In this document: one piece after another, positions 35,925-54,160 of the stretch | Layout: every line of letters begins with the position of its first letter | How positions within the stretch are numbered: position 1 is the stretch's first letter | DNA from: Chalara sp. BL73 | Taxonomy: Eukaryota > Ascomycota > Leotiomycetes > Helotiales | Direction of reading: 5' to 3' | DNA length: 64,000 nt | Assembly (NCBI GenBank): GCA_918026815.1 | Contig: CAKJVC010000010.1 | Span: forward strand, 1,118,501 to 1,182,500 | Notes under the pieces: generated by a model | What the model was told of the DNA's origin: nothing | Seen by the model: only the letters and a program-made list of their open reading frames with translations | Database searches by the model: none | Position numbers and translations under genes: made by a program

Positions 35925-35932
35925 AGTGACAT
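35925..35932 (+). promoter_or_regulatory. AGTGACAT cluster motif (arsH promoter, proximal)
   Basis: Context CAGTGACATTCC, 127 bases upstream of the arsH start; preceded by AGTGACG at 35914. See the motif finding. Confidence 0.6.
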
Positions 35933-36149
35933 TCCGTACTTTATTCCTAGTGGGAGGCAGTTTTTATGCAGGATTCTATTCAATCCTTGATGCGAATATT
36001 CATGCAACTTAGTTTCTGAAAAAAGAGTTCGAAGTGAAAGGGAGCAAATCATTCTTTAATCTCTTTGAAAATTGACTTCTCGAACTCTTTACTTTATCAG
36101 ATGGTCTTGGCGAGTAGAAAGTTCTCCCCATCTCTGAGAGGCTGATGGG

Positions 36150-36157
36150 ATGTCACT
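36150..36157 (-). promoter_or_regulatory. AGTGACAT cluster motif (arsH promoter, distal)
   Basis: Context (minus strand) GATCAGTGACATCCC, 352 bases upstream of arsH and close to the 3' end of the Acr3 gene. Confidence 0.5.
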
Positions 36158-36296
36158 GATCGGTATGTGCATTTATGATACAGTAAGCTACGCAAGCTAT
36201 TCTAGTATGAAGTAAACATATAATAAATATACAAGTTTCGGTTGCGTCTGATGACACATCCACAATTTCTTCCTCCTCAGTCCGTCCAACTTCTCC

Positions 36297-37602
36297 TCAG
36301 TCTTTCCAACCCCTCCTACGTCCGATAGCTTTCACAACATACACCAGGCCAAGCAAAACAGGCACTTCAATAAGTGGCCCGACAGTAGATGCCAAAGCCT
36401 GGTCACTATTAGGGCCATACGTAGCAACTGCGACGGCGATTGCGAGCTCGAAATTGTTGCTGGCTGCTGTAAAGCTTTGCGTCGCCGCCAATTTATATCC
36501 AAAGCCAAGCTTATACGTTAATAAAAGTGTAAAGAAGAAAATGACCGCAAAGTAGACAATTAGCGGCGCTGCAACTCTAACAACGGACACTATTTGGTGC
36601 ACAACTTGCCGGCCTTGAGACGCGAACAAAACGAGGATAGTGAAAAGAAGACCGATGAGCGACCACGGGGCAGCGAACTTCAAAAATACTTTGTCGTACC
36701 AAGTCGGACTGAAAAGTTTACGAAGACCGAACCGGGTTATGATTGCAGCACCAAGAGGGATCCCGAGGAAGACAGCTACTGATTTGGCGACAACTTCGTA
36801 GGAGACCTGCGCATCCGCACCACTTATGACTCGAAGGAACAGGATTGCGAGAGGGGCAAAAAGAACCATTTGCAGCATTGAATTGATAGCGACGAGGATG
36901 GCGCAGTATTCGTTATCCCCGCCAGCGAGACCCGTCCAGATTAGGACCATCGCGATACACCTCGCGAGGCCGACAAGAATCAGCCCATCTCGCAGACCTG
37001 GCTTGTCAGGAAGGAACGCCCACGCGAGGCCAAGCTGCACTGAATTAGTATGGCGAACGGGAAAATGTGACACTAGAGAAGAACATACCATGACTAAAGG
37101 CGCAATGACCCAATTAACCACTATGCTAAATCCTATCTGTACCCAGATTTTGCGCTCACGGAAGACGTGGTGAAGCGTCTCGTACCTGACTTTACACAAG
37201 ATAGGATACATCATGACGAGTAATCCAATTGCTAGTCACAGAAAGAGAGTGTAAGCAAGAGATCTTCGTAGGCCAAGGAGGCAATTTCTTTTTACCTATT
37301 GGAACAGAGACTCCAACAAATTTCCCCTTCTGCAAAGCTGGGCCAGTATTGGGGACAAAATTCCCCAGAATGATGCCGATAGCCATAGCCAAGAGAATCC
37401 ACACTGCTAAAAATCGGTCCAACAGCCCTAAACTTTTGAAAGCAGATGTTTTGGATGAACGAGAGTCATTTGTTGGATTGCCTTGCAGTTGTAGCTCGAT
37501 ATCGGGATCCAGAGATGAAGGCGGCGTCAGGTCGGAAACTGACTGCTCCTTCTTGGATTGTAGCGCGGAAGAATGAAGATCATGCGGAGTTGTTGGAGGC
37601 AT
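36297..37602 (-). CDS. acr3: Acr3 arsenite efflux permease
   Basis: Three exons, 37602-37296, 37231-37089 and 37034-36297, sum 1188 bases (395 codons). A polar N-terminus of about 60 residues leads to ten membrane helices of the Acr3/BASS fold. These start LGLLDRFLAVWILLAMAIGIILG and LLVMMYPILCKVRYE. The diagnostic stretch is PGLRDGLILVGLARCIAMVLIWTGLAGGD: its helix-4 cysteine (ARC) is the residue essential for arsenite transport in characterised Acr3. FTAASNNFELAIAVAVATYG carries the conserved helix-9 glutamate, followed by STVGPLIEVPVLLGLVYV. It pumps arsenite out across the plasma membrane. It is divergent from the arsenate reductase gene; two AGTGACAT motifs lie in the shared promoter, 218 and 243 bases from this start. 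Confidence 0.97.
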
Positions 37603-37819
37603 TTTGTGAATGCTGTTGGTGAGATGATGTTCGAAGTCTGTACTGGAGATATTATGTCGGGGGAACAGATTCGAGCACAAGTTCCTGTTTTATACATGTA
37701 TTCGAGCAGAGAAGAAGAGACGCGAAAGGAAGAGAAAAAAAGAATATGTTCGCGGCCATGCGTACAGAATGATCGAGGCCCAGGCCCTTATCCATCGCAT
37801 CAGCCAATCAAAAAGAGGC

Positions 37820-37827
37820 AGTGACAT
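37820..37827 (+). promoter_or_regulatory. AGTGACAT cluster motif (acr3/acr2 divergent promoter, copy 1)
   Basis: Context GGCAGTGACATTCTT; 218 bases upstream of acr3 and 337 upstream of acr2. Confidence 0.6.
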
Positions 37828-37844
37828 TCTTGCGGGATTAAGCG

Positions 37845-37852
37845 AGTGACAT
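37845..37852 (+). promoter_or_regulatory. AGTGACAT cluster motif (acr3/acr2 divergent promoter, copy 2)
   Basis: Context GCGAGTGACATTCCG, 25 bases after copy 1 (between two and three helical turns), in the same orientation. Confidence 0.6.
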
Positions 37853-38163
37853 TCCGGCATCCACACCGCCACTAATAACGCCGCGGCTTGAACAATCGAT
37901 TCCAATTATTGCACTCGACGCCAGGCACGAGGCATGGAATAGGAAGCTATATGGCGTAAAATTTTCTTCTCTACTGTTCCGCATGCTAGTGGCAATCTTT
38001 CCCAGGTTCAGAGATCAGGTCGCATGTGTCGATGTCGAGATCTTCTTCGCCTTTCCTACGCTTCTGCATCCCTCAATGTATGACTTTTAAAAACCTGCTG
38101 TTGAACTCGAAATTACATTACGGCACTACCAAGTCCTGTTCCATATCTTACTCCACCGTAATA

Positions 38164-38836
38164 ATGGCAACAGACAATCTCAGTTCCATCAAACCAACAG
38201 AAGAGAAGCCGTGGCATGCCTCTTACCCACCGCCAAAACTCACTGCGCCAGTCGTCGCTCGTGAAACCCTTCTCTCATGGATGCTCGAAGGAAAAGTAGC
38301 CGGAAAGGATTTCGTTCTTGTGGACCTTCGGAGGATGGACCACGAGGTATGTCCTAATGTTCTTTATATAGGCCTTTACAAAAGGGACCACATACTGTAC
38401 CAGAAGACTCGAAATTCATCCATGTACTGAAATGCTGACCCTTATGAGGGTGGCACTATTCGTGGATCAATCAACCTACCCGCCCAATCTCTCTACTCCA
38501 CGATCCCTTCACTATACAATCTTTTTTCGACTGCCACTATTCGGACCGTAATCTGGTACTGTGGTATGTTATCTGCTTTCCGCATTGTTATCTGCGCATT
38601 CGTCACTCAATCTTTTTTTTCTTTTTGCCGCTTCTGGTATACTTGGCTTAGAAGTTTCAGGTTCCTCACGCGGCCGCGGTAATCGCGCAGCAGGCTGGTT
38701 TGCAGATTACATCAAAGACCAGAACAACACTGGGATGGAAAGCTGTACTCTCGAAGGTGGCATTAAGGGTTGGGCGACCGCAGGAGATGAATACGTGAGA
38801 ATGATGGACGGGTACGATGCTTCAGTATGGAAGTAG
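38164..38836 (+). CDS. acr2: Acr2-type arsenate reductase (rhodanese/Cdc25 fold)
   Basis: Three exons, 38164-38346, 38449-38563 and 38661-38836, sum 474 bases (157 codons). The rhodanese/Cdc25 domain is complete: LVDLRRMDHEGGTIRGSINLPAQS, then the active loop WYCGSSRGRGNRAAGW, which has the C-x5-R signature of Acr2 arsenate reductases and Cdc25-like phosphatases, then a GGIKGWATAG end. It reduces arsenate to arsenite with glutathione/glutaredoxin, feeding Acr3. The length is close to yeast Acr2 (130). An in-frame ATG at 38026 would add 46 residues resembling a mitochondrial presequence; I prefer 38164 because the typical N-terminus begins near it. The active-site codon is split by intron 2. 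Confidence 0.92.
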
Positions 38837-39487
38837 AGTGGGTGTGTCTCCTGTTAGTGAGCGTGACGTGTTCTGTGTAGTACGGAAAGAGACCCGTGTC
38901 TTCAAGGGCCTACGAATCTTTTCCACCGCCGACACTTATATAAGAAACGCCAATCTCTTAGAACCGTTGTTCTCTCGTAAGCGCTAGCGCTCTGCCCAAC
39001 AAGCAGAAATGGCCTAAAAACCATGTTTGCATTGCCTGACACAGCACATCTGCATTGAGATGGAATTTGTGTTTTTCGTCGATTACATCGGCCAAACGGC
39101 TGCATAATGTAGACGACGTCCCTTTAAATATGAATTGGATAAAAATCAATATACTGCCAGTCTTGCGCCTTGTTTCGTGCTCGACTAGAGAGTAAGATCC
39201 TCTTCAAGCTCCTCTTATATACTCGCCGCTACAGTCCGCATAGTTTTTTAAACATGTCAAGTGGGAGTCCGCTTCTATTCCAAACCAAGATGAATCTGCT
39301 CTGCACGGTGACCACCTGACTCCTAATGCAAATATTGTTTTGGGTATGTGCGATTGTCAAGGCGACAGCCGCTTCCGCTTTCCGTATTTCCTTTTCGCGG
39401 AAAATCGAAATGTATATCCTTCGGAGAACCGTGTCATAATAAAAGTTTAAGCTCAGATGAGAAGCGTCATTGCCCACTAATATCTCT
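38837..39487. other. Intergenic between convergent genes
   Basis: 3' flanks of acr2 and the MCT-like transporter; no gene or motif recognised. Confidence 0.4.
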
Positions 39488-40958
39488 TCATAGAGCTCGC
39501 TGACTTGAGGCTTGTTCGACAACAGTTAATCGTCGGCGAACTCGCCATAATTCTAGAATTATAATGCTAGCTATGAAGTACGCTAACCCGGCAAAGATCT
39601 GGGGGTAGAGAAACGCATGTCCGGATCCGGGGCGCCTCAATTTCAGTGCGATTACTTCAGAGACTACAAATTGGTATAGCAATATAAGAATCATCCCTCA
39701 AATGTAGAATGAGCAGTGCTAAACTTACAGGTGGTTGGTAACACGATCACCAACCAGGCCAGTGAGAGCATAGATGGTAGCTCTTCAAGTCCCACGACTT
39801 CTGTGCATATTGGCCCAATTGTCTCCATGTAAGGTTAGTCTAAGGTATGAGCGGCGGGCTATGAGAGGACTCACAACCCAAAAGACCCCCAGGATTGCAC
39901 CATTGACAATTACAAAGAGAATGGTAACTCCGTATGAGGTAGCCGGTATCCAAATTGTAAAGACCGATATTGCGCATAGAAAAGTTATGAATCCCGCAGA
40001 CTCAATTCGGCCACAGTTATCACTAATAACTCCGATGAAAGGCCTTCCAAGTGCGGTGCCCAGGTTCAGAAGGGCTGTAATAGTGGCGGCTTGAGATTCA
40101 TCAAGACCTATTGAGCTTGCGAAGTTGGACATAGAGAAGAGTAAGGTTATATAACCTAACATACTCACAAAGGCCCAAGAAAGGACTAGTATGACATCGT
40201 AACGGCAAAGTAGGGCTATATCAAATGGATGTTGTTTTGGTTGAATAATATGATTGCGGCTCCGAATGGCAACTGTCGCGAGAATATTCATGAATCCACT
40301 AACGAGGCCAGTAATTCGAAGTGACCAAGCCAGAGAGGTATTGCTAATAGCTGCCCGCACCATAAAAGAGAACAAAAGCCCGCCAATACCAGAACCTGCA
40401 GCACTGATGCCATTTGCTAAGCTGCGACGCCGACGGAACCATTGAGAGAGAATGGCGACGCTGGGGATGTAGGTGAAACCAACTCCCAGTCCGACTAAGG
40501 CACCTTGGGCAAGGTAAAGATGCCAAATGCGTGTCGCGAATGATGCTGTGGTAAAGCCGGCTGTTTGCAGAGATATGCCAATGAACATAGGCAAGTGAAT
40601 CCCGAATGAGGTGCAGCGGGCGAAGACCGTTACGGCTGGAGTGGCCAACATCGCCACCGAAAAGTTTAGCCCTCCGATTATGGCAAAGTCCATAGGCGTG
40701 GCATCTGGGTAGATGTCGTTTTCGAGGTAGTATCCCAGAAAGACGCCGAATGACTGTACACTAATTATTAGCAATGCTGTGAGGAAGATTATGTTGTGTG
40801 CGAGATATCCACATTCTTACAGCAACCACACCCCACGTAAAGCAGTTGATGGTAAAACATGCGGCAACGCAAACCCAACCATATCCGCCGTCAGGTGGCG
40901 CGGGAACAGAGATTGATGGATTCTCAGAATCCCGCAGAGAATCGCAATGTTTACTCAT
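39488..40958 (-). CDS. MFS monocarboxylate-transporter-like permease
   Basis: Four exons, 40958-40821, 40753-39875, 39822-39729 and 39663-39488, sum 1287 bases (428 codons). The N-terminal PPDGGYGWVCVAACFTINCF is the MCT family signature (D-G-G-x-G-W). It is followed by TWGVVASFGVFLGYY, GLGVGFTYIPSVAILSQWF, RRRSLANGISAAGSGIGG (helix 4-5 loop of MCT/riboflavin-type transporters), SSIGLDESQAATITALLNLGTALGRPFIG and ILGVFWVTIGPICTEVVG. The C-terminus is basic (ELWRVRRRL). Substrate unknown; lying between acr2 and a bZIP with an AGTGACAT site 110 bases upstream, it may move methylated arsenic, a thiol conjugate or an organic acid. This is inference. Confidence 0.92.
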
Positions 40959-41498
40959 GTCCTATCTTACAGCAAAAATAAATGCACAAGGACTGATAGA
41001 CCTTAAGAGACCAGCGGGCTATGAAGATAAAAGAAGGGTGATCAGTCATTGTGGGTCCAGCGTTGATATGTCACTGCTCCTTGTTACGAGGGGAGCTACA
41101 GTTACGAAGCACCGATTGTGATTCGACGGTTGTATGGGGAGCAACATTGAAATTTTGAGGTATTCTCACAGTACTTCCAAAATTCTAAAAATGGAGTATT
41201 TTAAGACAAATGTACCAAAGACTACGAATATCACCTTATTTATTTTGTCACATTCGTTGTTGTAGCTAAATGTCCATTTGGGAGGCGGGTGAGGGAATGC
41301 GCCAAGCCCGCCTCGAGAAACGCGATTCTCGCCAAGATCGCCAAGTTTTTTTTTGCCAAGTTTTACGGGTCATGTGACAACCATCAAAAATGTTTGAACC
41401 GTCCGAGCCCTGGGCGGCATGTCGGGGCGAGGCTAAGAGGTTCTTTCGAGCCTGCGAGAAAGCAGAACCCCGTTTATTCAAACCACAAGCGCACAGTC
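40959..41498. other. Divergent promoter of MCT-like gene and bZIP2
   Basis: Contains AGTGACAT at 41068-41075 (minus) and the 10-mer GTCATGTGAC at 41369-41378 that recurs at 44809. No gene. Confidence 0.45.
41068..41075 (-). promoter_or_regulatory. AGTGACAT cluster motif (MCT-like gene promoter)
   Basis: Minus-strand context GGAGCAGTGACATATC, 110 bases upstream of the transporter start and about 424 upstream of bZIP2. Confidence 0.6.
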
Positions 41499-42440
41499 AT
41501 GGCACCGAAACTCAAAGGAAAGGTCAGCAGCTTATGCCACTACTCTCCAGGTCATGCTAACTGGAATTCACAGTCAGCTACGTTGGCCAGAGTACGCAAC
41601 AATCAGCGACGTTCGCGCGCACGCAAACGCGAGTATATCGCTGAGCTTGAGCGCAAGGTCCACGAATACGAGGCAAATGGAGCCCCAACACGCAATATCA
41701 TTCCTCACGATACAATCCTTCGACTTGAAGATGAGAATAGAAAGCTACGTGAGTTATTACACCTTGCAGGGGTAGAGCAGACTTTAGTGAACACCCATCT
41801 CAACTACAACGGTAGCGCTTCTGAGGTTGCTGACAGCGACAACCGTATGCAAACCTCACCAGAAATAGCGCTAGATGATCTGGTAAGTCTGGAGAACTGT
41901 ATTCTGCCAATATGGCCTTTTCCCTAGTTGGAAGACTGCTACTTTTCGTACTCGACATTGCTAATGTCTCAAAAGTCGACAGACTTGGTGCCAACCGCCG
42001 ACAGGGTAAGCATACCTGATCCTTCAGGTGATTTGCTCGCAGCATCGTTTCTGCGGATATCTCGAGACGAGCTCGGCCTGTTCGACCCTGTTCAAGCGAT
42101 GCCTTCATTTGATCTCTCGCCTGCCTCGCAAAGCCCCGCCGGTCCTTCTTTCCCCTTCACTTACGATTCATCCTTATCTCCACTTCCGTCCTCGCCCTTT
42201 TCAACTGCCCACGCTCTGTGCCCTGCTGGATCCAGTTTCCCGACTACCAGCCAGTCCGATAGCGGGACAACTTTGTGCTCAGTAGCATATCAGCTAGTGT
42301 GTCAACATAATAAAAGAGGGATTGATATGATGGAGATTGGCATTCGTCTTTGGAATGGTTTTGTAAAAGGTGATGGAGTTGCTGGTTGCAAAGTGGAAAA
42401 CAAATTGCTCTTCAGCGTCTTGGAATATATCAGCGATTAA
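41499..42440 (+). CDS. bZIP transcription factor 2 of the arsenic cluster
   Basis: Three exons, 41499-41522, 41574-41882 and 41976-42440, sum 798 bases (265 codons). The basic region TLARVRNNQRRSRARKREYI is followed by AELERKVHEYE and LEDENRKLRELLHLAGV as zipper. The middle is a Ser/Pro-rich activation-type region. The C-terminal module TTLCSVAYQLVCQHNKRGID...GCKVENKLLFSVLEYISD matches bZIP3 closely (C-x3-AY, GC-K/R-V, LLFS-L-ISD). It is a DNA-binding regulator, most likely of the surrounding arsenic genes; the Cys positions could bind As(III). Start chosen because MAPKLKGK followed by an intron is the only in-frame lead into the basic region. Confidence 0.9.
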
Positions 42441-42528
42441 TGTTCTTGCAGTGATAGTACGATGAATTCTGCGCAAATCTATCTGTAGTACGGATATCTT
42501 AATTTCCCATAGAACATATTTCGTTACG

Positions 42529-42536
42529 AGTGACAT
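42529..42536 (+). promoter_or_regulatory. AGTGACAT cluster motif (monooxygenase promoter, distal)
   Basis: Context ACGAGTGACATTCCA, 351 bases upstream of the FAD monooxygenase start. Confidence 0.55.
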
Positions 42537-42673
42537 TCCATACATGACATACCGCCAGATTTTCTACAACTTAGGCTTGAAATGCCCTGTATTTCAGTTG
42601 TTTCTGGGCATTATTTATCTAAATACGTCCCCCAAGTTGGACCAAAGGTATGATATATATCTGCCAAGAAAGA

Positions 42674-42798
42674 GAATGTCGCCAAGAGAATGTCGCCAAG
42701 AGAATGTCGCCAAGAGAATGTCGCCAAGAGAATGTCACCAGAGAATGTCGCCAAGAGAATGTCACCAAGAGAATGTCACCAAGAAAGAGAATGTCACT
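42674..42798 (+). repeat. Minisatellite of 9 operator-like 14-base units
   Basis: Unit AGAGAATGTCGCCA. GAATGTC starts at 42674, 42688, 42702, 42716, 42730, 42743, 42757, 42771 and 42789. Five units read GAATGTCGCC and four GAATGTCAC; the last reads GAATGTCACT, an exact cluster motif in reverse (AGTGACATTC). It lies 82-206 bases before the monooxygenase start. Confidence 0.9.
42791..42798 (-). promoter_or_regulatory. AGTGACAT cluster motif (monooxygenase promoter, proximal)
   Basis: Final unit of the minisatellite; 82 bases upstream of the start codon. Minus-strand context GTAGTGACATTCTC. Confidence 0.55.
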
Positions 42799-42879
42799 AC
42801 TCGATATATTTCATGGCCAGAAATATGGAACAGGTGATGCTAAGAATTTCCAACAGATTTACCTTGAAAGTTTCGAGCT

Positions 42880-44702
42880 ATGAATTCCTCAATGATCCCC
42901 TCTGATGTAATTATTATTGGAGCTGGCTTGTCAGGTAAATCAAGCATCGGAATCCTGCCTCCCTTAACAACGCCTACAAGCTGACATATTACAAAGGCAT
43001 TTGTGCAGGTATTCAATTACAATCAACATTCAAAAATGCAACTTTTGAGATTTTCGAAAAATCAAATGATATCGGAGGTACCTGGTCTAAGAACACCTAC
43101 CCTAACCTCAGCTGCGATATCCCCTCCCACGTAAGACATTTTCTTAAAGCAGGTCTTTCTATCACATATATCGTTACGTGCAAACCTTTACTAACGTCGA
43201 GCTATACATCTAAGTTATACGCTTATTCTTTCGCCCTTAACCCTGACTGGTCAACTACATACGCAAGCCAAATTGAGATCCTGGCCTACATCAAACGCGT
43301 AGCCTACAATCTTCAGTCCCGTATTCATTTGGGTCAGGAATGCGTTTCTGCCGAATGGCATGAAGAGACAGCTTTATGGAAAGTACAATTCATTGATCGC
43401 ACTACTAATGAAACGTATGTGCGGCACTCTCGTACTCTGTTCACTGCTGTCGGATTCTTAGACGCCCCAAAAGGACTTGAAGGCGTTACTGGAAACCATG
43501 AATTTCGGGGAAGAATATTTCACAGCTCTAATTGGGACGATGAAGTTAACTTTGAAGGAAAAGATGTTGTGGTTGTTGGCAATGGTGCTTCAGCTAACCA
43601 GTTTGTCCCGTGGTTACTCAAGAGCACTGGTCTGAGAAACCTGGTCCAGGTCGTACGAAGTGCACAGTGGATTGCCCCTAAAAATAATCAACGAATTGGG
43701 AATATGCAGAAATGGTAAGCGTCTCTGTAGTTATATTCTCTTTAATCTTGAGTAGTTTTTTCTTACGTCTGCAGGGTTTTTAACAGCTTCCCTTTCACAA
43801 ATCGACTATATTGCTGGTGGCTAGCTATAAAGCTTGATCTCGCTTTCGTTGCTTTCAAAAACAACTTTCTGGGCCGCCATGTCAGATCGGTCCTAGAAGC
43901 GTCACTTGTTTCTTATATAGAGCAGACCGCCCCTAGTCAATACCGCCCTATCCTTGTCCCTTCATACGCATTCGGCGCTAAGCGTGCCATATTAGACCAC
44001 GAATATCTTGCTTCACTGCATAATCCTAAAGCAAAGCTGGTCAAATCCAATAGCCTGACAGTCGTCGGTGCAAGGCAAATTGCAGATGAGAATGGCGTTA
44101 TATATCCTGCAGACATTATAATTCTAGCGAATGGATTTAAAACAGCGCAGCTTCTTACTCCTATGACAATTATTGGCCTGAATGGAGTAAAACTCCGGGA
44201 TCTATGGGAGCGCGGACCTAACAGGGCGAGAGCATACATGGGGTACGTACTTTCAAACATTCCACATTCATCTTTACAAAAGTCGACGAAGGAATACTAA
44301 CGGGATGAAAGAGTAATGGTGTCTGAGTTTCCGAATCTCTTTTTGCTCACAGGCCCGAATACGCTTCCTTCAGGTCATTCAACGCTTCTTGGCATTGAGC
44401 ATTCTGTAACATATATTCTGCGCTTGCTTAAACCTTTGCTTGGGTCAAAAGTGCAGTCCAACCAGCCAAGGACATCCAAGATTAATGTGAAAAAAAGAGC
44501 AGAAAATGATTTCAATAAATTTGTGGAGAATAGAATGAAAAAACTTGTTTATACGTCAGATATCAGCACTTGGTACATTGACCAGCGAACGGGGAGGAAT
44601 CATCTCATTTGGCCGGGAAGCCAGCTGGAATTTTGGTGGTCGAGGTGCATCAAGAGGATCCGGTGGTCCGATTTTGTGCTTTCAAAGGATAAGACAACAT
44701 GA
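42880..44702 (+). CDS. FAD-dependent monooxygenase (FMO / Baeyer-Villiger type)
   Basis: Five exons, 42880-42934, 42997-43130, 43215-43714, 43775-44242 and 44312-44702, sum 1548 bases (515 codons). The FAD-binding Rossmann motif DVIIIGAGLSGICAG is at residues 8-22. It is followed by FEKSNDIGGTWSKNTYPNLSCDIPS, the hallmark GGTW and Y-P-x-x-x-C-D-x-P-S of this class, and ALNPDWSTTYASQIEILAY. The NADPH motif VVVVGNGASA comes after FHSSNWDDEVNFEGK (BVMO-like fingerprint region), then ADIIILANGF and LFLLTGPNTLPSGHST. Such enzymes oxygenate ketones, amines or soft heteroatoms. Placement with ArsM, ArsH and Acr3 and two operator motifs suggests a role in the arsenic response, possibly organoarsenical oxidation; that is inference. 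Confidence 0.93.
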
Positions 44703-45919
44703 TAGCTACAGTAGGATCTAATTTATGAAATTTGTGGCGCCGTGAGAAAATGCAATATCTGTTTGTATCAATATTTTGCAGTATGCTTAGTTACTGAAGG
44801 TTGGATGGGTCATGTGACCCTGTCACATGACTCAGGGATGAGGATATGCCTCATCCCTTGATTCAATCTTCAACAAGGAGATCACATTCAACCCAACAGG
44901 CAACTGCGTAGCAATTACGTAGTGTTGCCACGGGTAGAGTGATCCGACAATATCTTTGAATATCCTTGAAAGAGCTCTTATAGTAACCTTCCCGTCAAAT
45001 TATCTTGTAAGAGCGCAAATGGGTCATGATACCCCAGGAAGAAAGATTGAGACGAAGCTTGAACTAATGATATAAGATTATTTGGTGCTATGCCACATCC
45101 AGAAGGAGATTGAGGCACACTTATAAAAAGTACACGTGATATCTATCTCATACTTCCTACCGTATCATCGGCTCAGAGGCATCGATACTAACGAAGACTC
45201 TTGGCGAACGAGACACACTGTTGACACCAAGCTGCTGACATTTCGCAACTCCAAAATTGAAACCCTTATAATGTACGAAAATAGAAGCACCCTCCGGCCC
45301 CATGCAATACCTCTCGCGTCTTTAATGTCCAGTACAAGTACGATACCGCGCAAATCAAACGATTTATATATGTCTCGTGCACATTCAACATTTCAGGCAC
45401 TCATCGTCTGCGCCGAGGAACGCAGAGCATGGTCAATCTGCAGCACAATATCTAATCACCACGGCCATCAAGCTTTGATGCTGACGATATCGAACAATGC
45501 GCGTTCATCCAGTTTGGCGACTAATACCATTGATGATATGCCGCTGGGATTCTATGGTCGCGGGTATACACTTTACCAGGCAATGAGATGGTAAAGGTGG
45601 GAAGATAACACGGAAGACCCCGCAAACGCGACACGTTACTATTTGGAAGTCTTATGCATCGTTGTCGCCCGGCTCTACACAGCTTCCATTGAGGTTCAAC
45701 ATCACCTCTGGTGGATGGTAATCCCATCGGTGCCTAGAAGATCCTACTAATGGCCTGGCGCAATCTTGTGGAAATGTTGCCGAGATTTGTGCCGGGGAGT
45801 TCGGTAGCAAGTTGATGCGTATCTCAAGTATCCTAAGAGGATCGGCAGACTTCAATACAAACACAAACAGATTGCTGCTCTGTAGGTGCCTTGCGACACT
45901 GTTGGCCTGTCGCGTGTGA
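44703..45919. other. Intergenic, apart from the hairpins no gene supported
   Basis: A 152-codon open frame at 45136-45594 has no family features and I do not call it. The rest is the 3' flank of bZIP3. Confidence 0.4.
44809..44857. other. Two adjacent perfect hairpins after the monooxygenase gene
   Basis: GTCATGTGAC, CCT, GTCACATGAC (44809-44831) is a perfect 10-base inverted repeat. GGGATGAGG, ATATG, CCTCATCCC (44835-44857) is a perfect 9-base one. They lie 107-155 bases after the stop codon. They could be a paired protein-binding site or a 3'-end structure. Confidence 0.8.
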
Positions 45920-46993
45920 TCATGTGTCGCTAATAAAAGCCAGAAGGCTGAACAACAGATCCGTCTTGACTCGGCATCCCTCGTCACGACGGGCTGGCTT
46001 GCGAAACCCGTACCAGAGCCAAGTTGCTACATCTTTCTGGTTGATTCCCTTGAAGTTCTGCTGCGCGATGAGAATGTATGCCTCTGCACAAAGCATCGTC
46101 GACTCTCCCTCGGTGCTATATCTGTAGTAGGCTTCAATGGCTGGCTGGAAAACAAACCCTGGCAGTGAGTGCAGGTTCTCTTGACTCAGAACTATAGCGT
46201 GTTCATCTGTCTTGTCGTCGTCCGGCTTCGAAGAGTGTTCATCAGAGCAGCAGGTTTCCGGTGTTGGCGGAATCGGGTCTAGAGTGGCTGCCGCAGATAG
46301 CAAAGTTCCAGTTCCTCCAGTGAGCTGGGACTGCGTGGTTTGGAAAGCTAGATCTGATGCACTACATGAGCGGGAGTGACATTCTGCACCGACGTCAGCT
46401 AATACAGGTACCGTAGCGAATGTATTTTCGGAGATATGTTTAGGCAACTGAGCTAGAGGAACCAGTGCTTGCGGAATCTCGAATTCGGTGGAACTATTGG
46501 CATTCTCAGGTCCAGCATGTGGAAAGATATCGACAAGTTCCGGGCCAAGTCCAGCAGACAAGTCATCAGAGAACAGATGCTGAAATGGAAGTGGGGCAAT
46601 CGGTGGCAAATTCTCGAAGCTAGTAGCATTGGGGAATAGGCCAAATGTTTGAGGGCTGGTTTCTTGCAAGCTAGGCAGTAGTGCAGGTAAACTGCCGCTA
46701 TTGTCACTCTGAAACTGTTGTGGCAGTACGGAACAGTTCGACGTGGTCTGGTTATCATGATTGCGGCGTTGGGATAATTCTGCTTGAAGAGCATCAACTT
46801 GATCTTGAAGGATTGTGATAGACTGTTCTGCCTGAGTGAGCTTCTGTTCTAGCGTCGCGATGTAGTCCTTTCGACGAGCGCGATGGCGGCGCTGGTTGTT
46901 GCGAACCCGCTCTAGCGTCTGTTGTGCCGTAACACTCTTGCTCCTAGGTCGTGTTCTGGGTCCGGCGGCATGTGAATGTGAGTTGGAAGCCAT
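45920..46993 (-). CDS. bZIP transcription factor 3 of the arsenic cluster
   Basis: A single exon of 357 codons. The N-terminal basic region TLERVRNNQRRHRARRKDYIA is followed by a regular leucine zipper (LEQKLTQAEQSITILQDQVDALQAEL, leucine or hydrophobic at heptad positions). A long Ser/Pro/Gln-rich middle follows. The C-terminal module is TMLCAEAYILIAQQNFKGIN...GCRVKTDLLFSLLAFISD, the same as in bZIP2. It is divergent from arsM; AGTGACAT lies 108 bases upstream, so it may be autoregulated, and another copy lies inside the coding region (46375). Paralogue of the other two bZIPs; together they look like a local expansion of one regulator. Confidence 0.93.
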   Translation of the reverse strand: MASNSHSHAAGPRTRPRSKSVTAQQTLERVRNNQRRHRARRKDYIATLEQKLTQAEQSITILQDQVDALQAELSQRRNHDNQTTSNCSVLPQQFQSDNSGSLPALLPSLQETSPQTFGLFPNATSFENLPPIAPLPFQHLFSDDLSAGLGPELVDIFPHAGPENANSSTEFEIPQALVPLAQLPKHISENTFATVPVLADVGAECHSRSCSASDLAFQTTQSQLTGGTGTLLSAAATLDPIPPTPETCCSDEHSSKPDDDKTDEHAIVLSQENLHSLPGFVFQPAIEAYYRYSTEGESTMLCAEAYILIAQQNFKGINQKDVATWLWYGFRKPARRDEGCRVKTDLLFSLLAFISDT

Positions 46994-47100: not shown

Positions 47101-47108
47101 AGTGACAT
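47101..47108 (+). promoter_or_regulatory. AGTGACAT cluster motif (bZIP3 promoter)
   Basis: Context ACAGTGACATATCG, 108 bases upstream of the bZIP3 start. Confidence 0.6.
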
Positions 47109-47383: not shown

Positions 47384-47391
47384 AGTGACAT
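47384..47391 (+). promoter_or_regulatory. AGTGACAT cluster motif (arsM promoter)
   Basis: Context GCAGTGACATATCG, 123 bases upstream of the arsM start; nearly identical flanks to the bZIP3 copy. Confidence 0.6.
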
Positions 47392-47513
47392 ATCGCTGTC
47401 CATTGGAAAAGCTATATGAATTCTAGATTTAGCAAGGTTTTGTAAATTCCTTTTCTACCAAGATCGACCAAGCACTTCATTTATTACTATTCTTGCTCAC
47501 AGCATTCAAGACA

Positions 47514-48675
47514 ATGGAATCCAAAGAGATTTACGACCAAGTCAACAAACGATACGGCTTAATCGACAAGAGTAGCACAGGCCAGTACGAGCAGACAGTT
47601 GCCAATGCTTTCGGATACACAAAGGAAGAACTGGCTGGCATCCCAGAGGGTGCGAATCTTGGACTGAGCTGTGGCAATCCGCTTGCGCTTGCTAAGCTGA
47701 GAGAGGTACGTATAGATATACCTTACAATAAATCTCAGTGCTAATTTGCGCAGGGTGAAACTATTATCGACCTTGGATCTGGTGCTGGCTTCGACGTTTT
47801 TATAGCCGCAAAAAAAGTCGGTTTGTCCGGCAAAATAATTGGTGTTGACATGAACAAGGCGAGTAGGAATCCGGCCTGCGTAAGCGCTTGGATGTCGCGC
47901 TAATGATATATCGAAGAACATGATTGAAAAAGCAAACGCCAACAAGGCGAAGACTAACACTGAGAACGTCGAGTTCGTCGAAGGAGCTATCACTTCTATC
48001 CCGCTGCCAGATAACACAGCCGACTGCATAATCAGCAACTGCGTCATCAATCTCGTTCCTGCGGCGGAAAAGCAGCTTGTGTTCAATGAAATGTACCGAC
48101 TGCTTAAGCCTGGCGGAAGAGTCGCTATTAGTGACATTCTTGCCCGGAAGGAGTTGACTAAAGACATGAAGGAGAACATCGCTTTATATGTTGGGTGCAT
48201 TTCTGGGGCGAGTCAAGTCAGTGAGTATGAAGCATATCTCAAGAATGCAGGCTTTGAGGGTGAGTCCAATCTTATCACTGCGCTATGGCCAATAACTAAG
48301 TTGCATGCGGCAGAGCTCCTGATCGTAGATAGTAAAAATGACTTGAACGTGTACCTGACTGCAGCAGAGGACGGGACATCGTGCTGTGGTACGGCCGTAG
48401 AGAAAGTCTCATCTTGTTGCACTACAGAGAAGCAAGCGACATGCTGCAAGCCGGAGCTAAAAGAGTCCTGCTGCCAATCCGGTTCATCGACATGCGGTTG
48501 TCAGGACAAGACTTCGATGGCAAGTGAGGCCAAAAAGTTGGCCGCTTCAATGGAAAATATGGACTTTAACGAGTGGGCTGGTACGAACATCGCAAATTCC
48601 CCTGTATGCTGGTTCCAGGCTAATAGGCTCACAGGCTCCTTCCAAGTTTATGCTGTCAAGCCGATGACCAATTGA
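47514..48675 (+). CDS. arsM: ArsM, arsenite S-adenosylmethionine methyltransferase
   Basis: Four exons, 47514-47705, 47754-47858, 47917-48259 and 48314-48675, sum 1002 bases (333 codons). The N-terminus [17 protein letters not shown] and [29 protein letters not shown] contain the first conserved As-binding cysteine and SAM motif [15 protein letters not shown] carries the second cysteine, [15 protein letters not shown] is motif post-I/III, and [12 protein letters not shown] holds the third cysteine. The C-terminus is Cys-rich with repeated CC pairs ([22 protein letters not shown]), typical of eukaryotic ArsM, then a last [12 protein letters not shown] extension. It methylates arsenite to mono- and dimethyl species. 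Intron 2 starts with GC (AAG|GCGAGT, 47859-47916), the only join that keeps [10 protein letters not shown]. Intron 3 is 54 nt and in frame. Confidence 0.96.
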
Positions 48676-48944
48676 GGTATGAGCTGATATGGCAGGCATT
48701 CGTTGATGTATGTTGATGGGTAGCGATGTCACAGCAGTATTTGTCTTAATTTCTTCCTTTTAAATGCATTCACGTGTTCTCGCTAGTTCCTGACTACTTA
48801 GTCCTTGCGTTTTCTCCCTCAACTCCTTTTCAACACTCGCATTGTACGGTGCCATCAAATTATATCTCGACACAACCCGCACATCAAGAGATAATCTAAC
48901 AACATTTCCCTTCCATGTATGTGGGTTCGTATGTAGATAAAGTC
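48676..48944. other. arsM 3' flank
   Basis: No gene. GATGTCACAG (48725) is a near-match to the cluster motif but lacks its first base. Confidence 0.35.
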
Positions 48945-49155
48945 ACGTGAACCAACACCCTGCGATGCACAGACCACCACATCTTTAGTTCTCGCATGTA
49001 GATTAGCACTTAAGAATACAAGAACAAGTCAACCACCTACAAAGAGCATAATAGCACTGCGCTGAGATCGCGGTGCTACGTGCCCCGTGAATAACCGACT
49101 TAAGCAATTGCAAGTCATCATACGAAGAAGTATCACAGAAAGTGATACAAACAAT
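48945..49155 (+). pseudogene. DUF3435 fragment, second copy
   Basis: About 200 bases closely match 26715-26945 of the first DUF3435 relic (GTAGATTAGCACTTA, AAGAACAAGTCAACCACCT, GCTGAGATCGCGGTGCTACG, GACTTAAGCAATTGCAAGTCA, GTATCACAGA). Stops interrupt every frame. It is a detached piece of the same element family, inserted between arsM and the bHLH genes. Confidence 0.85.
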
Positions 49156-49261
49156 GTGTAAATGGATTTTTTTGGTGATCGGCGCAGGCGGTGAGAGAAG
49201 CGGCCGATTTTGCCCGATATTCAATATATTTGGACACAATATTTTTCATTTAAAAAATTCC

Positions 49262-49545
49262 TACCTTTAATCTCTGCCTTTTCTTTCTGCACGCACTTGA
49301 TGTACTCGGTCGCCATCTCGATAATGCTGGCAATAGAGTTTGTCTAGCTTCCATCACCACTAGCGCAGCCGTGTTGCCTGAATGGTACGATTTCTGCGGC
49401 GGTGTTCGGCAGTCTTGTGATTGGCACCCTCGGAATCTGCCTTCGTAGCAGGTTAGTCTAGGTTGGAGAGCCGGAGCTGAGAACGAATTTCCCCGACGAT
49501 AATGGTTGGATCTTGAGACAAGAAGGTATCTGGAGGAATGAATTG
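49262..49545 (-). pseudogene. bHLH gene relic (Pho4/NUC-1-like)
   Basis: On the minus strand a decayed frame reads SQDPTIIVGEIRSQLRLSNLD, a TAA stop, ADSEGANHKTAEHRRRNRTIQA (basic region) and, after an interruption, ASIIEMATEYIKCVQKEK (helix 2). This is the same order as in the intact bHLH gene at 50249. The TAA could derive from CAA by a CpA to TpA change, as RIP makes. Confidence 0.7.
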
Positions 49546-49751
49546 CTTTGCCTATTCAATACAGATGATAGCAGGGTTATATACCTGGACGCAGTATTTC
49601 CAGGTGCCAAGAAACGTGCAGGACCAATAATGCTGTGGCAGGAAAAATTCTATAGCTGAGTCCTGACTTTAAAGAGGCTCTATAGATTATTCGTTGAGCC
49701 TCGGACATTGTTTCTCCCAGCTCGCGTGACCATCTGGACGCGGGAATGGGA

Positions 49752-49759
49752 ATGTCACT
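49752..49759 (-). promoter_or_regulatory. AGTGACAT cluster motif (upstream of bHLH gene)
   Basis: Minus-strand context GGTGCAGTGACATTCCC, about 490 bases before the bHLH start. Confidence 0.5.
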
Positions 49760-49827
49760 GCACCGCGGCGATTGGTTCAAGTTTTGCGCCTCAGGTGTCT
49801 TTTTGGCGCATCAATTTCTGTGAGTGC

Positions 49828-49835
49828 ATGTCACT
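49828..49835 (-). promoter_or_regulatory. AGTGACAT cluster motif (upstream of bHLH gene, weaker)
   Basis: Minus-strand context CTATAGTGACATGC; flanks deviate from the consensus. About 415 bases before the bHLH start. Confidence 0.4.
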
Positions 49836-50248
49836 ATAGCTTCAAATCGCAATGACGCAGAGTGATTGGCAGACAGTATGCTATTTGTAAAAATTGATTG
49901 CTGGGCAAAATGGCAAAACCCGTAAGTCCAAGGCATGCTTCGGGACTCTTTGGTCTCATGTGCCACAAAGCAACTTGGTAAGAGCAACTTACAAGTTAAA
50001 ATAAGACGTACATGATTGCACCTCCGCTGTTTGGGTTTGGCATAAAATTCAAAAATCGAGAAGGCTCATTGCGTGAAAAACTACACACATAAGCTTCAAA
50101 TGTCTCCCCGTGGCAGAGTTACCAAAAGCCTAGAACGAAGTGGAAATGCGCGACATAATCTTCTCTCAAATCTGAACTCTTCAATAAGCACGGCACGAGA
50201 GAGAAGTCAGGGTTAATTTTTGCTTTCTTTCACAGCATTCCAAATCAT

Positions 50249-50668
50249 ATGCTAACTCCTTTTTTAGCAGTCAATCCGTCCGATTTACTCGCTTCGAAAT
50301 CCAACTATCAACTTATTATTGAGGGAGCATCTTCTCAGGCTGGACTCTCCTTTCCAAACCATATGGTAGAGCAGACAGTGTCAAAGAGCGCCACTTCGAA
50401 GCAAACCAGTCATACCACAGCCGAACGGGCTCGCAGAAATGATATGAAATCTGCCATCCAAGAGCTTGGTCATCTCATATTGCAAGAATGCTGCGATGAA
50501 GTCACTCAAAAGGCTTATGCATCCAGAGTTACAGTGCATGATAAGCGTAGACCTCAGCTCAAGAGTAAAATCAACACGGTGGAGCTAGCGATTGAGTATA
50601 TCAAGTGCATGCGGAAGGCAGCAGCTAGAGTACAGAGCAAGCCAGAAGGACATCACCACCAAGGATAG
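50249..50668 (+). CDS. bHLH protein, Pho4/NUC-1-like
   Basis: One exon of 139 codons. The bHLH domain spans about residues 52-130. Its basic part and helix 1 are SHTTAERARRNDMKSAIQELGHLI, where R-A-R-R replaces the usual E-R-x-R after H-x-x-A-E. A loop with AYASRVTVHDKRRPQLKSK follows, then helix 2 NTVELAIEYIKCMRKAA. The N-terminus (FLAVNPSDLLASKSNYQLIIEGA) resembles that of the decayed neighbour. The protein is much shorter than NUC-1, lacking an obvious activation domain, and could act as a small partner or inhibitor. Pho4-type factors control phosphate uptake, which is also the route of arsenate entry, so its presence here is suggestive. This link is inference. Confidence 0.75.
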   Translation: MLTPFLAVNPSDLLASKSNYQLIIEGASSQAGLSFPNHMVEQTVSKSATSKQTSHTTAERARRNDMKSAIQELGHLILQECCDEVTQKAYASRVTVHDKRRPQLKSKINTVELAIEYIKCMRKAAARVQSKPEGHHHQG

Positions 50669-51730
50669 CAGTGTTAGCCGGCAAGGCTTGCTTGGCTAAT
50701 TTGAAAGAAGTCAACGCCTGTTTCTTCTGCTATATGCGTATGGAAGCTATCATCTGAACTAGAATGCAGGTGTTTACGGGATGCTTGCCCTTAGTTCCTA
50801 CTGGCGTGTGTGGAAGGAAGTTATGCCCATTGTCGTATTCGGGAAAATAGGCCTGGGATAGAATGAGCATGTATCTTACCCGTTAGTATATTTGTCGCCA
50901 TTTGAGCCTCAAAAACATGCATTGTGAGATAAAGGCACGAGCGGTTTTGGGTTCTAGTTTAGAAGCGAGGTCGATCCTTCTACACCAGACCAAAATCCTA
51001 CTTACAAAAGGTGCACTCTCGACTCTACTTGTAGCTACATGGGTCATGAATGTTATGGGTAATGACCGAACTAGCAAGAAATCGCACAAATCGTTGGTCC
51101 TAGACAGGCGCAGGCCTTCATTGCTGGGCATCATAATAGTCATCTGAGCACGCCTGATATTTCGCGATGGGCTTGCTATAGCGGGGTATGGCGCATAGAG
51201 CCTAACCAGCAAAATGAGCATTAACGAGCCACAATATTGGGGCCACATTCTTCAACAAAGCAAGGCTACTGGAAGCAAACTGCAGGTTTTGCCGTTCTCA
51301 ATTTCCACCTTCACAGCGCCATCTAATGCAACCCCGCACTTCAATAGCTCCTCTAGCTTTCTATTCTCGCCTTGGAAGGCTGCCTGGGAGCGTATGTAAG
51401 AGATCGATTCAAGGCGGTTTGGGCTGAGGAGTCAAGCGTGAGCCTTGATATGGAGGGGCTTGAGGGGTTGGAGATGCTGAGACTAGATGTGGAGAAAGGT
51501 ATTAAATTTTATATGGCAGGAATCCACTGAAGCTTAGCGGCAAAGTGGGAAGGGGGCAGTCAAAGCGTAGGGTCGATTCTGATCCTGAGCCGGACTTGGA
51601 TTTAGCTATACTAAAATTATGGAAAGCAGAAAACCAATTGATTTAATAAAATAATCCTATTCGTTATGCGTGACATAGACGCAGATTGGAAAGCGGGCAA
51701 TACAGTAAGAAAATATAGACCCACCACCCT
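50669..51730. other. Intergenic with a possible decayed coding piece
   Basis: 51210-51530 (plus) has two coding-like stretches in different frames (QYWGHILQQSKATGSKLQVL and RFKAVWAEESSVSLDMEGLE) ending in a stop. No family recognised and no clean splice; not called. Confidence 0.3.
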
Positions 51731-53473
51731 TCACCCCGATTTCGCATCTGCTGTCATTCCCTGATCCCCGCCCTCATCCTTGTCTCTATGCTCATCCTCC
51801 TCTCTCACGACGTCTTCTTGGCTCTCATCAGACAATGTCTCGCCGTATAAGCTTTGGGGGTTGAAAGCGAAGGAACCATTAGGAATGAAGGTCGCAAGTA
51901 GTATGCTAATCGCAATGACAGTGAACTGCACCCCGGCAATGTTGAAGATTGCTGAGTGGATATTGATGTATCCGTCGGGCCATCCGGGAACCGGGATGAG
52001 TCCTTTGCTTAAGTTGTTGGTGTTAGCATTGCCGATTCTATCGATATATCTCCCGATAACAGAGGAAGTGATGGCATAAATGACGATATAAGTACAGTAG
52101 AGGAACGCCATGACGGCCCCGAGGGGAGAAACATCGTTAGAATCTTTCTCCTTCCGTTGGAGCAGAGCTTGGATGTAAGCCGCGAGGGAGACATCACCGG
52201 CTGCCCAGCCGAAGGATATAGGGATAAAGGTACCAGCGACCATCCAAGCGTCGGTGACACGTCCGGTCGGGACCCACCAGGATGAGAGATACCAGACAAT
52301 AAACAGTAAGCAGGCGTCGAGGCGGAGCCAGGGAATCGGAGTTCGGACTGTATTGGAGAGGAGGAAGACAACGAGAGCGCCGAGCAATTCTCCAAAGTTG
52401 GAACCGCCGACCATAATTTGCGACCAAGCCGAATTACCAAAATAGCGACGAGCAATCGCAGGTGCAATAGCATTCTCTAGATAACGATGGCCATAGAGAG
52501 CAAAACTGTAGCCTGGGATGAGCCAGATGAATTTGCGAGAGGTGAATATGATCTTGGCACCAACCCAGACTGACTCTCCGAACAAGTAGAAGCCTCCGAG
52601 AACTGCCTTGAGGTACATTGGCTGGCCAGCCAGGACCAAGGCCGATGGTTTCTCGAAGTTAAGGTGGGAGATGAACCACCAGGTAATCGATGCGCCGGTA
52701 AAGAAGATTGGGGTGATGATGAACGACATGTTATTACCCAGTTTTGGAATCAGTGCAAGTGCGGTACAGAAAGAGCCACCTGTGCCGGCCACTTCGTAGA
52801 AAATATGAACCAACGCATCCATACGGCGCAATTTTTGGACATCGCCTCCTACGATGTCTCGCGGAATGACTCTGCGGATCAACTCTACCATGCCATATGC
52901 AATACCCGACACACAGTAGATGGGAATAATGCCATCAGAATTATAGTCTCCATAATAAGCCCAATCGTCCTTTTTATGAGTCTTGTCCCAACCTGCTGGC
53001 TTTATCCTTCCGCCAGTGCTAGCATCGACGACGAGCAGGATGGCGGTCAGGAGGCCGAAGACGAGAATGGCCATTGACAAGACCGTCTTGGTTGGGAAGC
53101 GCTTGATTAGGGGTGCGATCAGGATGCTGCCAACACATTGAAAAGCCTGATTGAGACCAGTCAGGAGACCGATCTTGAAGAATGTCTGATTGTGTGTCTG
53201 TTTGATTTTGGCATCGTAATCATAACGATTGGTCGCAAGCGCGATAATTGAGCCATTAAAGGCTTCGAGCCCGAATTTGTAGAACATGATGCCAACTATA
53301 TAGATGGTAATATTGCGTTTCTCGATTGGTGTGTACAGCGACCAAGCGGCTCTGACCGAGTACTTGGACATCTTCTTAGTCTCATACATGATGGCCGACA
53401 CTGCGTTGCTGGATGTTGGGTGCCTTGTCCTGTTTGTACGACAAATTGAATAGACGAGAGAGAGAATATCCAC
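51731..53473 (-). CDS. MFS transporter, fungal family of unknown substrate
   Basis: A single exon of 580 codons. Conserved sequence starts at YSVRAAWSLYTPIEKRNITIY; the first ATG (53473) adds a short polar leader, and M29 (53389) is a possible alternative. Membrane segments include MFYKFGLEAFNGSIIALATNR, KIGLLTGLNQAFQCVGSILIA, VLSMAILVFGLLTAILLVVDA, GIIPIYCVSGIAYGMVELIRR, FIWLIPGYSFALYGHRYLEN, and GWAAGDVSLAAYIQALLQRK after helix 8. The acidic C-terminus (DVVREEDEHRDKDEGGDQ) is cytoplasmic. A TATAAA lies about 110 bases upstream on the minus strand. An AGTGACAT motif lies 517 bases upstream, so it may belong to the arsenic regulon. Substrate unknown. Confidence 0.92.
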   Translation of the reverse strand: MDILSLVYSICRTNRTRHPTSSNAVSAIMYETKKMSKYSVRAAWSLYTPIEKRNITIYIVGIMFYKFGLEAFNGSIIALATNRYDYDAKIKQTHNQTFFKIGLLTGLNQAFQCVGSILIAPLIKRFPTKTVLSMAILVFGLLTAILLVVDASTGGRIKPAGWDKTHKKDDWAYYGDYNSDGIIPIYCVSGIAYGMVELIRRVIPRDIVGGDVQKLRRMDALVHIFYEVAGTGGSFCTALALIPKLGNNMSFIITPIFFTGASITWWFISHLNFEKPSALVLAGQPMYLKAVLGGFYLFGESVWVGAKIIFTSRKFIWLIPGYSFALYGHRYLENAIAPAIARRYFGNSAWSQIMVGGSNFGELLGALVVFLLSNTVRTPIPWLRLDACLLFIVWYLSSWWVPTGRVTDAWMVAGTFIPISFGWAAGDVSLAAYIQALLQRKEKDSNDVSPLGAVMAFLYCTYIVIYAITSSVIGRYIDRIGNANTNNLSKGLIPVPGWPDGYINIHSAIFNIAGVQFTVIAISILLATFIPNGSFAFNPQSLYGETLSDESQEDVVREEDEHRDKDEGGDQGMTADAKSG

Positions 53474-54160
53474 ATGGAATATACAAAGAGAAATTGACGG
53501 TGAAGCTGAACAGCAAAGCTCCTTCGACTTCGAACAGCTGCCTTCTTGCCAGGCAAGCCGACGCGATCAGTAGGTTACAATTGGAGCCTTTATACTTAAT
53601 GGAGTCCCAATTGTGAAAGGCCCCTGGCTGTAACGAACTGGTAGTGTAATATACCGGAGATGCAACAATATCGGAGCAAGCCATGTCGTCAAAACTCTCG
53701 ACACGGCCACTGAAGGGCTTTGCAAGCAACACGTGCGTTACTGGAGATGGTAGCAGGAAGCTTGAGCAAGAAATATCGTGTCCCTCCAAGATCTTGGAGA
53801 TTATCTGCGTACCGCAACAAGGGTGAGAACAACGCTATATCACAGGAAAGCAATACCATACGTTGAGACACTCGAGCTAAGACGGCCAAGCGTTAGCGCC
53901 AATCATTACTGTCCATCCATGCTTCCTATTCCAGAAGGTAGAAGAGTTCGGAGAAAGGTGTCCCGGCAGTTTGGGCTGAGGATAATGGAATGTCACTGCT
54001 CCACCCTAATTGGCCGGTCCTGCCAATTAGCATTCTCGTGACTGCACTGCATGGCAAGGAACCATTCGACGCAATGGTCTTTAGTGTAAAGTACCCATGC
54101 ATGGGGATCTCCTCGTTCTCTGCCATGCTGGCAGATGAGTAGCCGCAATCGCAACATGGC
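53474..54160. other. Promoter of the MFS gene, no gene
   Basis: Contains a TATAAA on the minus strand near 53590 and AGTGACAT at 53990-53997. Otherwise no feature seen. Confidence 0.45.
53990..53997 (-). promoter_or_regulatory. AGTGACAT cluster motif (MFS promoter)
   Basis: Minus-strand context GGAGCAGTGACATTCC, identical over 12 bases to the MCT-promoter copy. 517 bases upstream of the MFS start. Confidence 0.55.

Follow-up and report, generated by a model that had tools for sequence, protein, structure and literature searches.

A repeated promoter element, CAGTGACATnYC, as candidate operator of an arsenic gene cluster in Chalara sp. BL73

What could switch on, as a set, the genes of a fungal arsenic cluster? 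The question is raised by a stretch of 64,000 nucleotides from Chalara sp. BL73 (contig CAKJVC010000010.1, positions 1,118,501 to 1,182,500; the window hereafter), whose arsenic gene cluster contains many copies of the 8-mer AGTGACAT. The switching-on of such clusters in filamentous fungi is thinly covered in the available excerpts of the CC-licensed PubMed Central (PMC) literature. We consider it probable that an extended form of this word, CAGTGACATnYC, is the operator of an arsenic regulon, bound by a bZIP protein encoded within the cluster (probably bZIP3) and, at some promoters, beside the CCAAT-binding complex (CBC). The window lies on contig C7 of a genome of 58,659,784 bases (58.66 Mb) in 199 contigs, and our genome-wide statements are pattern counts and similarity searches of these contigs, with the reversed word as the control for counts.

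Enrichment and placement of the element

The initial annotation proposed a cluster-wide operator-like motif from 14 copies of AGTGACAT at 35,925-53,997, and on recount of the window every one of these coordinates was exact; the single copy that it noticed elsewhere also exists, at position 10016 rather than 10013. The window thus holds 15 copies against 2.09 expected, a number seen in 0 of 100 shuffles. Neither is the word as frequent in the rest of the genome, where 1,500 copies (1,366 for the reversed control) amount to one per 39 kb; at that rate 0.46 copies are expected in the 18,073-base stretch that contains 14 (Poisson P = 1.5e-16). It is scarcely credible that chance or base composition, with the word picked as best by its reader, produced this pattern. 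Scanning many words always yields some clusters, and an interval bounded by its own first and last site flatters P somewhat, but this is insufficient to explain a P that remains at 5e-12 after multiplying by all 32,896 8-mers, and AGTGACAT is moreover the top-ranked 8-mer by excess in 34-56 kb. The sites are as follows.

35925..35932, plus strand: AGTGACAT, arsH promoter, 126 bp before the ATG at 35798
36150..36157, minus strand: AGTGACAT, distal arsH promoter
37804..37827, plus strand: composite CCAAT-N11-AGTGACAT, divergent ACR3/ACR2 promoter; AGTGACAT at 37820, 217 bp before the ACR3 ATG at 37602
37845..37852, plus strand: AGTGACAT, ACR3/ACR2 promoter, second site
41068..41075, minus strand: AGTGACAT, divergent MCT-like/bZIP2 promoter, 109 bp before the MCT-like ATG
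42529..42536, plus strand: AGTGACAT, distal monooxygenase promoter
42791..42798, minus strand: AGTGACAT, adjoining a 14-bp array, 81 bp before the monooxygenase ATG at 42880
46375..46382, plus strand: AGTGACAT in the bZIP3 coding sequence; role doubtful
47101..47108, plus strand: AGTGACAT, divergent bZIP3/arsM promoter, 107 bp before the bZIP3 ATG
47384..47391, plus strand: AGTGACAT, bZIP3/arsM promoter, 122 bp before the arsM ATG
48130..48137, plus strand: AGTGACAT in the arsM coding sequence, within Ser-Asp-Ile codons
49752..49775, minus strand: composite CCAAT-N11-AGTGACAT, upstream of the bHLH gene
49828..49835, minus strand: AGTGACAT, second site upstream of the bHLH gene
53990..54013, minus strand: composite CCAAT-N11-AGTGACAT, 600 bp before the MFS transporter ATG at 53389

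As first described, 12 of the 14 copies are noncoding, and these occupy all seven promoter-bearing intergenic regions from arsH to the MFS gene (3.9 kb; arsH, ACR3/ACR2, MCT/bZIP2, monooxygenase, bZIP3/arsM, bHLH and MFS), the two classes of region depending on our gene models, whose gene ends are approximate. The assignment of the MFS site is weaker because of its distance from the ATG. AGTGACAT is absent from all four non-promoter intergenic regions (3.56 kb), as it is from the 797-bp region upstream and the 1,164-bp region downstream of bZIP1 and from 49201-49559, a possible bHLH remnant that was excluded from both groups. No other 8-mer is present in all seven promoter regions; the best 8-mer in 200 first-order Markov shuffles covered three regions 162 times, four 37 times and five once. 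Together, the enrichment and the placement strongly support a cluster-wide operator-like element.

The particulars of the initial annotation fared less evenly. Its distances of 82-127 bases to five start codons become, by our start codons, 126 bp for arsH, 109 for the MCT-like gene, 81 for the monooxygenase, 107 for bZIP3 and 122 for arsM. The 12 noncoding sites give the consensus CAGTGACATnYC, in which the preceding base is C in eight sites, G in two and T in two, and the variable downstream position is followed by C or T (nine and three) and then by C in 9 of 12; the claim that CAG and GAG are both common therefore stands for CAG and is overstated for GAG. Of the three cluster bZIP genes that were linked to the motif, bZIP2 and bZIP3 carry it upstream and bZIP1 does not. 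The motif has one TGAC half-site and is asymmetric. An 11-bp direct repeat of TGAC is seen in two cases, at 35925 and 47384.

Variants of the word were also counted across the genome. AGTGACATTC occurs 97 times against 78 for the control, with nine of the 97 in the cluster, while AGTGACATATC occurs 26 times against 11, with only three in the cluster, and this form is hence above control elsewhere too. Close pairs of the type GTGACAT-N0..30-AGTGACAT show no genome-wide enrichment, with five counted for the pattern and five for the control. A locus on contig C133 with two AGTGACATTC was rejected as a further candidate, as no arsenic gene was recognised by eye among its long open reading frames.

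CCAAT composites, a tandem array and copies elsewhere

Beyond the initial annotation, the restriction of the sites to promoter-bearing intergenic regions is new, as are a CCAAT composite and a 14-bp array. The sites at 37820, 49752 and 53990 read CCAAT-N11-AGTGACAT on the same strand with a spacing of exactly N11. The composite was first spotted by eye and the statistics were done afterwards: from the local CCAAT density, CCAAT at one offset in 3 of 14 sites has P = 1.0e-6, or 1.7e-4 over 160 offsets and orientations. A genome scan for CCAATN{8,14}GTGACAT gave 50 matches against 26 in the control, and once the five cluster-derived matches are removed the N12 spacing falls from 11 of 50 to 6 of 45, leaving no peak in the spacing histogram; the composite is therefore a feature of the cluster and not of the genome. 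Indeed, only six CCAAT-N11-AGTGACAT exist genome-wide, namely the three in the cluster and those at C7:1436223, C129:597759 and C69:365923. The first two of these outside the cluster fall in copied cluster pieces, and the third, apparently unrelated, is within a reading frame whose translation looks by eye like an aldo-keto reductase.

Composites of this kind bring to mind the iron regulon, and we have weighed whether the sites could be HapX/CBC elements through which the cluster answers to iron status. The three composites are indeed oriented like known CBC-bZIP sites, and the presence at the cluster edge of an MFS transporter without an assigned substrate would also suit this reading. The HapX motif given in the available part of its source is CSAATN12RWT (PMC10602907), whereas GTG follows CCAAT-N12 at all three composites, so that by this consensus they are not HapX sites. 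Furthermore, 9 of the 12 noncoding sites have no CCAAT at the composite position, and arsH, ACR3 and arsM are arsenic genes, which makes regulation by iron very unlikely.

The second new feature lies in the monooxygenase promoter.

42670..42784, minus strand: 14-bp tandem array, monooxygenase promoter; 8.3 units

Three of its units contain GTGACATTC and five contain GCGACATTC, the site at 42791 adjoins it, and a two-unit pattern of the array occurs six times within it and nowhere else in the genome. The array may be a local multiplication of the operator. A minisatellite built on the motif is also what would be seen if the copies were remnants of a scattered repeat family, or of promoter fragments that had been duplicated, and played no part in regulation, as are the duplication of cluster pieces elsewhere in the genome and a repeat search that pairs two of the composites over 27 bp at 78%. 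We regard this as highly improbable, given that the information content across the 12 sites is <= 0.5 bits beyond positions -1 and +10, that the array pattern is unique to the one promoter, and that a neutral repeat is not expected to be confined to promoter-bearing regions.

The copied pieces provide a further view of the composite, and such copies within the genome served in place of orthologous clusters from related species. As the composite pattern itself had pointed to them, both promoters were also searched by DNA similarity, and exactly one other copy each of the ACR3/ACR2 and bHLH promoters was found, both of which keep the composite. In the ACR3/ACR2 copy 23 of 24 bases are kept at C129:597759-597782 over a background identity of 70%, and in the copy of the bHLH gene and its promoter (C7:1435.6-1436.6 kb) all 24 bases are kept at C7:1436223 over a background of 79%; equally conserved windows of composite width number 26 of 538 in the former promoter and 6 of 519 in the latter. 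A protein search also turned up what appears to be an ACR3 pseudogene, on C191, with 54% amino-acid identity and six stops in the matched stretch; it carries AGTGACAT 220 bp before its assigned start, compared with 217 bp in the live ACR3.

With regard to these loci themselves, C129:582436-598082 (G000; L046, L031, L032) is a decayed and rearranged copy of cluster parts at 75-86% identity, comprising the ACR3 5' end, ACR2, the MCT end, bZIP2 and the arsM end, and its aligned ACR3/ACR2 piece differs by 151 transitions and 83 transversions. The ACR3 pseudogene (C191:80675-81654; L049/L050) is more divergent than the C129 copy and has an inverted CCAAT near its upstream AGTGACAT.

The candidate binder and a model of regulation

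TGAC fits a bZIP half-site, and a genome search with bZIP3 as the query returned bZIP3, bZIP2, bZIP1 and one decayed copy with nothing else at E <= 0.001; from these sequence features we infer that an in-cluster bZIP is the likely binder. The best protein match of bZIP3 is from Bisporella sp. PMI_857 (88% identity), the next named matches are from Leptodontidium, Hyaloscypha and Pseudogymnoascus, and Oidiodendron is also among its relatives. Against Pfam bZIP_2, bZIP3 gives E 5.7e-4 and 20.4 bits (cut-off 22.3), and against the PDB there was no convincing match (best E 0.089). AlphaFold predicts the basic region and zipper as one helix, residues 23-83, with confidence to about residue 80. The mean score (pLDDT) is 50.9 and the model is poor outside the helix, with residues 298-357 moderate, for which reason we claim no cysteine geometry.

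When bZIP3 was aligned with 22 relatives, picked for spread from the 120 listed, Val30, Asn33, Gln34 and His37 were present in all 23 sequences, as were Cys302 and Cys340, while Cys248 and Cys249 were present in 22. Val30 stands at the position of the conserved bZIP asparagine, where the cluster bZIPs have Val or Ile; the register was set by the zipper and the conserved Arg/Gln residues, using the sequences of Gcn4 and Pap1. A second alignment of 20 sequences has Val, Ile or Thr at this position in bZIP2, bZIP1 and wider relatives, and the adjacent cysteine pair also in one relative of bZIP2 (P0135). Since wider relatives share Val, Ile or Thr, the replacement of the asparagine marks a subfamily rather than an arsenic function.

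A true cluster-wide operator could also be read by something other than an in-cluster bZIP, such as the bHLH protein of the cluster, a factor of the homeodomain or zinc-cluster type, or a global bZIP, and we judge this to be unlikely. The asymmetry of the motif with its single half-site, the two sites upstream of the cluster bHLH gene and the excess of AGTGACATATC outside the cluster would each suit such a factor. The E-box recognised by bHLH proteins is CANNTG, which the motif does not fit; the genome-wide count of AGTGACAT is only about 10% above its control, so that no large regulon is visible elsewhere; and the bZIP3 query matches only the cluster bZIPs and the decayed copy.

We therefore return to an in-cluster bZIP and propose a model that starts from the observed enrichment, placement, spacing and copies, and in which the binder, the involvement of the CBC, the sensing of arsenite and the sign of regulation are the parts that we infer. 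The operator would be bound, as an asymmetric site with one TGAC half, by a bZIP that is encoded in the cluster and belongs to the RVRNNQRR(S/H)RAR subfamily; bZIP3 is the likeliest, and bZIP2 or a heterodimer is the alternative. CAGTGACATTCC would be the putative target of bZIP3 and bZIP2, alone or together, with or without the CBC. At the ACR3/ACR2, bHLH and MFS promoters the CBC, bound to CCAAT, would present the neighbouring site to the bZIP, as it does for HapX and Yap5. Arsenite would probably be read through cysteines 248/249, 302 and 340 of bZIP3, and this reading would turn on the cluster together with the bZIP genes themselves, an autoregulation for which the context is that the bZIP2 and bZIP3 promoters carry the motif. 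The members of the regulon would be arsH, ACR3, ACR2, the MCT-like transporter, bZIP2, the monooxygenase, bZIP3, arsM, the bHLH gene and the MFS transporter. In its most specific form, in which AGTGACAT is read by a bZIP subfamily which lacks the DNA-contacting asparagine and docks beside the CBC at 11-bp spacing, the model is tentative, and we would sooner expect it to need revision than to hold in every part.

Several observations weigh against this model. Two of the 14 copies, at 46375 in bZIP3 and 48130 in arsM, are coding and probably coincidental, AGTGACAT is not palindromic as a bZIP site, and the truncated word GTGACAT is present, in each case as a single copy, in two of the four non-promoter regions and also upstream of bZIP1. 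The composite is missing from 9 of the 12 noncoding sites, and of AGTGACATATC, as the motif reads at three sites of the cluster, there are 23 copies in the rest of the genome, compared with 11 for the whole reversed control. In the promoter copies the second site is not kept (7 of 8 bases for ACR3/ACR2 and 6 of 8 for bHLH), and in the ACR3 pseudogene AGTGACAT is on the opposite strand relative to the gene, compared with the live ACR3. The residue at the asparagine position and Cys302/Cys340 are common to the wider bZIP subfamily and are not specific to arsenic. Finally, Pfam scans of the bZIP reading frames show no Hap4-like domain, with no direct search made for the short motif, and little sequence precedes the basic region at the N-terminus; neither observation points to a route of contact with the CBC.

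Should the model be correct, the CBC would serve as a platform not only for iron bZIPs but for arsenic bZIPs too, the change from Asn to an aliphatic residue would have arisen separately in Yap8, and the monooxygenase-promoter array would represent local multiplication of the operator. The analysis provides a concrete candidate operator, about ten candidate targets, a bZIP whose conserved cysteines make it a candidate sensor, and the prediction that the CBC acts as a partner. In the available excerpts of CC-licensed PMC text we found no description of the element or of such a regulator for fungal arsenic clusters and CCAAT, which is weak evidence of novelty, and among the top matches listed in a literature search for AGTGACAT no title concerned arsenic.

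Cluster genes and comparison with known systems

The genes referred to above are the following.

34801..35798, minus strand: arsH; NCBIfam ArsH, 289.8 bits on one exon, cut-off 292.25
36297..37602, minus strand: ACR3 arsenite efflux pump; NCBIfam acr3, above cut-off
38164..38837, plus strand: ACR2-like rhodanese-fold protein; three exons by our splicing; PF00581; no NCBIfam match
39600..40958, minus strand: MCT-like MFS transporter; PF07690; NCBIfam lactate/monocarboxylate transporter models below cut-off; 3' end approximate
41499..42442, plus strand: bZIP2; spliced model; candidate binder
42880..44703, plus strand: flavin monooxygenase; PF00743; weak NCBIfam matches only, including ArsO
45920..46993, minus strand: bZIP3; basic region VxxNQxxHR; favoured candidate binder
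47514..48676, plus strand: arsM arsenite methyltransferase; best NCBIfam model arsenite methyltransferase, E 1.9e-45, below cut-off
50102..50669, plus strand: bHLH regulator gene; PF00010; start uncertain
51731..53389, minus strand: MFS transporter; PF07690 below the Pfam cut-off; no NCBIfam match

The arsM product matches solved arsenic methyltransferases in the PDB. The name ACR2 is given by resemblance; this predicted protein (38449-38840) has YC-x5-R at the signature, which is HC-x5-R in yeast Acr2. On the minus strand at 49240-49560 another bHLH gene may have left a remnant, with a helix-like stretch TNSIASIIEMATEYIKCVQKEKA recognised by eye in frames broken by stops. The cluster is flanked by 102-bp tandem repeats at 28499-29763 and 60166-61740 (12.6 and 15.5 copies), both inside long reading frames that by eye resemble ankyrin repeats. 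A dispersed repeat family is present at 54205-54420, 55405-55660 and 62928-63135, and also at C7:1429085-1429303 and C7:1439817-1440128, with short tandem repeats of the GTAGGCAC type at 54250 and 62970, and a 31-bp inverted repeat lies at 54676-54759.

Three known systems invite comparison, each as described in the available parts of the cited papers. The first is Yap8 of S. cerevisiae, in which the conserved basic-region asparagine is Leu26 (LxxSQxxFR, not NxxAQxxFR), a residue that together with Asn31 narrows specificity (PMC7261193, PMC3865217). The likeness to the cluster consists of a site in a shared ACR2/ACR3 promoter (in the cluster a putative bZIP site, in yeast the Yap8 response element Y8RE, TGATTAATAATCA, through which Yap8 regulates both genes) and of an aliphatic residue in place of the asparagine, Leu in Yap8 and Val or Ile in the cluster bZIPs. 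YAP8 is also linked chromosomally to ACR2 and ACR3. The differences are that the cluster site is another one, AGTGACAT, and asymmetric (TGATTAATAATCA was not searched for in the cluster), that CCAAT composites are present, that there are about ten candidate targets instead of two, and that the bZIP subfamily is different, with VxxNQxxHR in bZIP3.

The second comparison is with the CBC partners of the iron response. HapX uses a bipartite CCAAT element with a non-palindromic part (PMC4232046), and Yap5 uses CCAAT with a Yap response element (YRE) at 10-14 bp (PMC8662346). Both resemble the composites in having CCAAT followed by a bZIP-like site on the same strand at a short fixed or near-fixed distance; they differ in that the cluster genes are arsenic rather than iron genes and in that only 3 of the 12 noncoding sites here are composite.

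Finally, XanC of A. fumigatus is an in-cluster bZIP for which the available text describes an 8-bp element, AGTCAGCA, in five xan promoters and not in those of xanC and xanD, mutation of which in the xanB promoter lowers expression (PMC8406171). A fungal bZIP encoded within its cluster and an 8-bp element distributed over the cluster promoters are thus common to both systems. XanC serves a secondary-metabolite cluster through another site, and, unlike the xanC promoter, the bZIP2 and bZIP3 promoters of the arsenic cluster carry the motif themselves.

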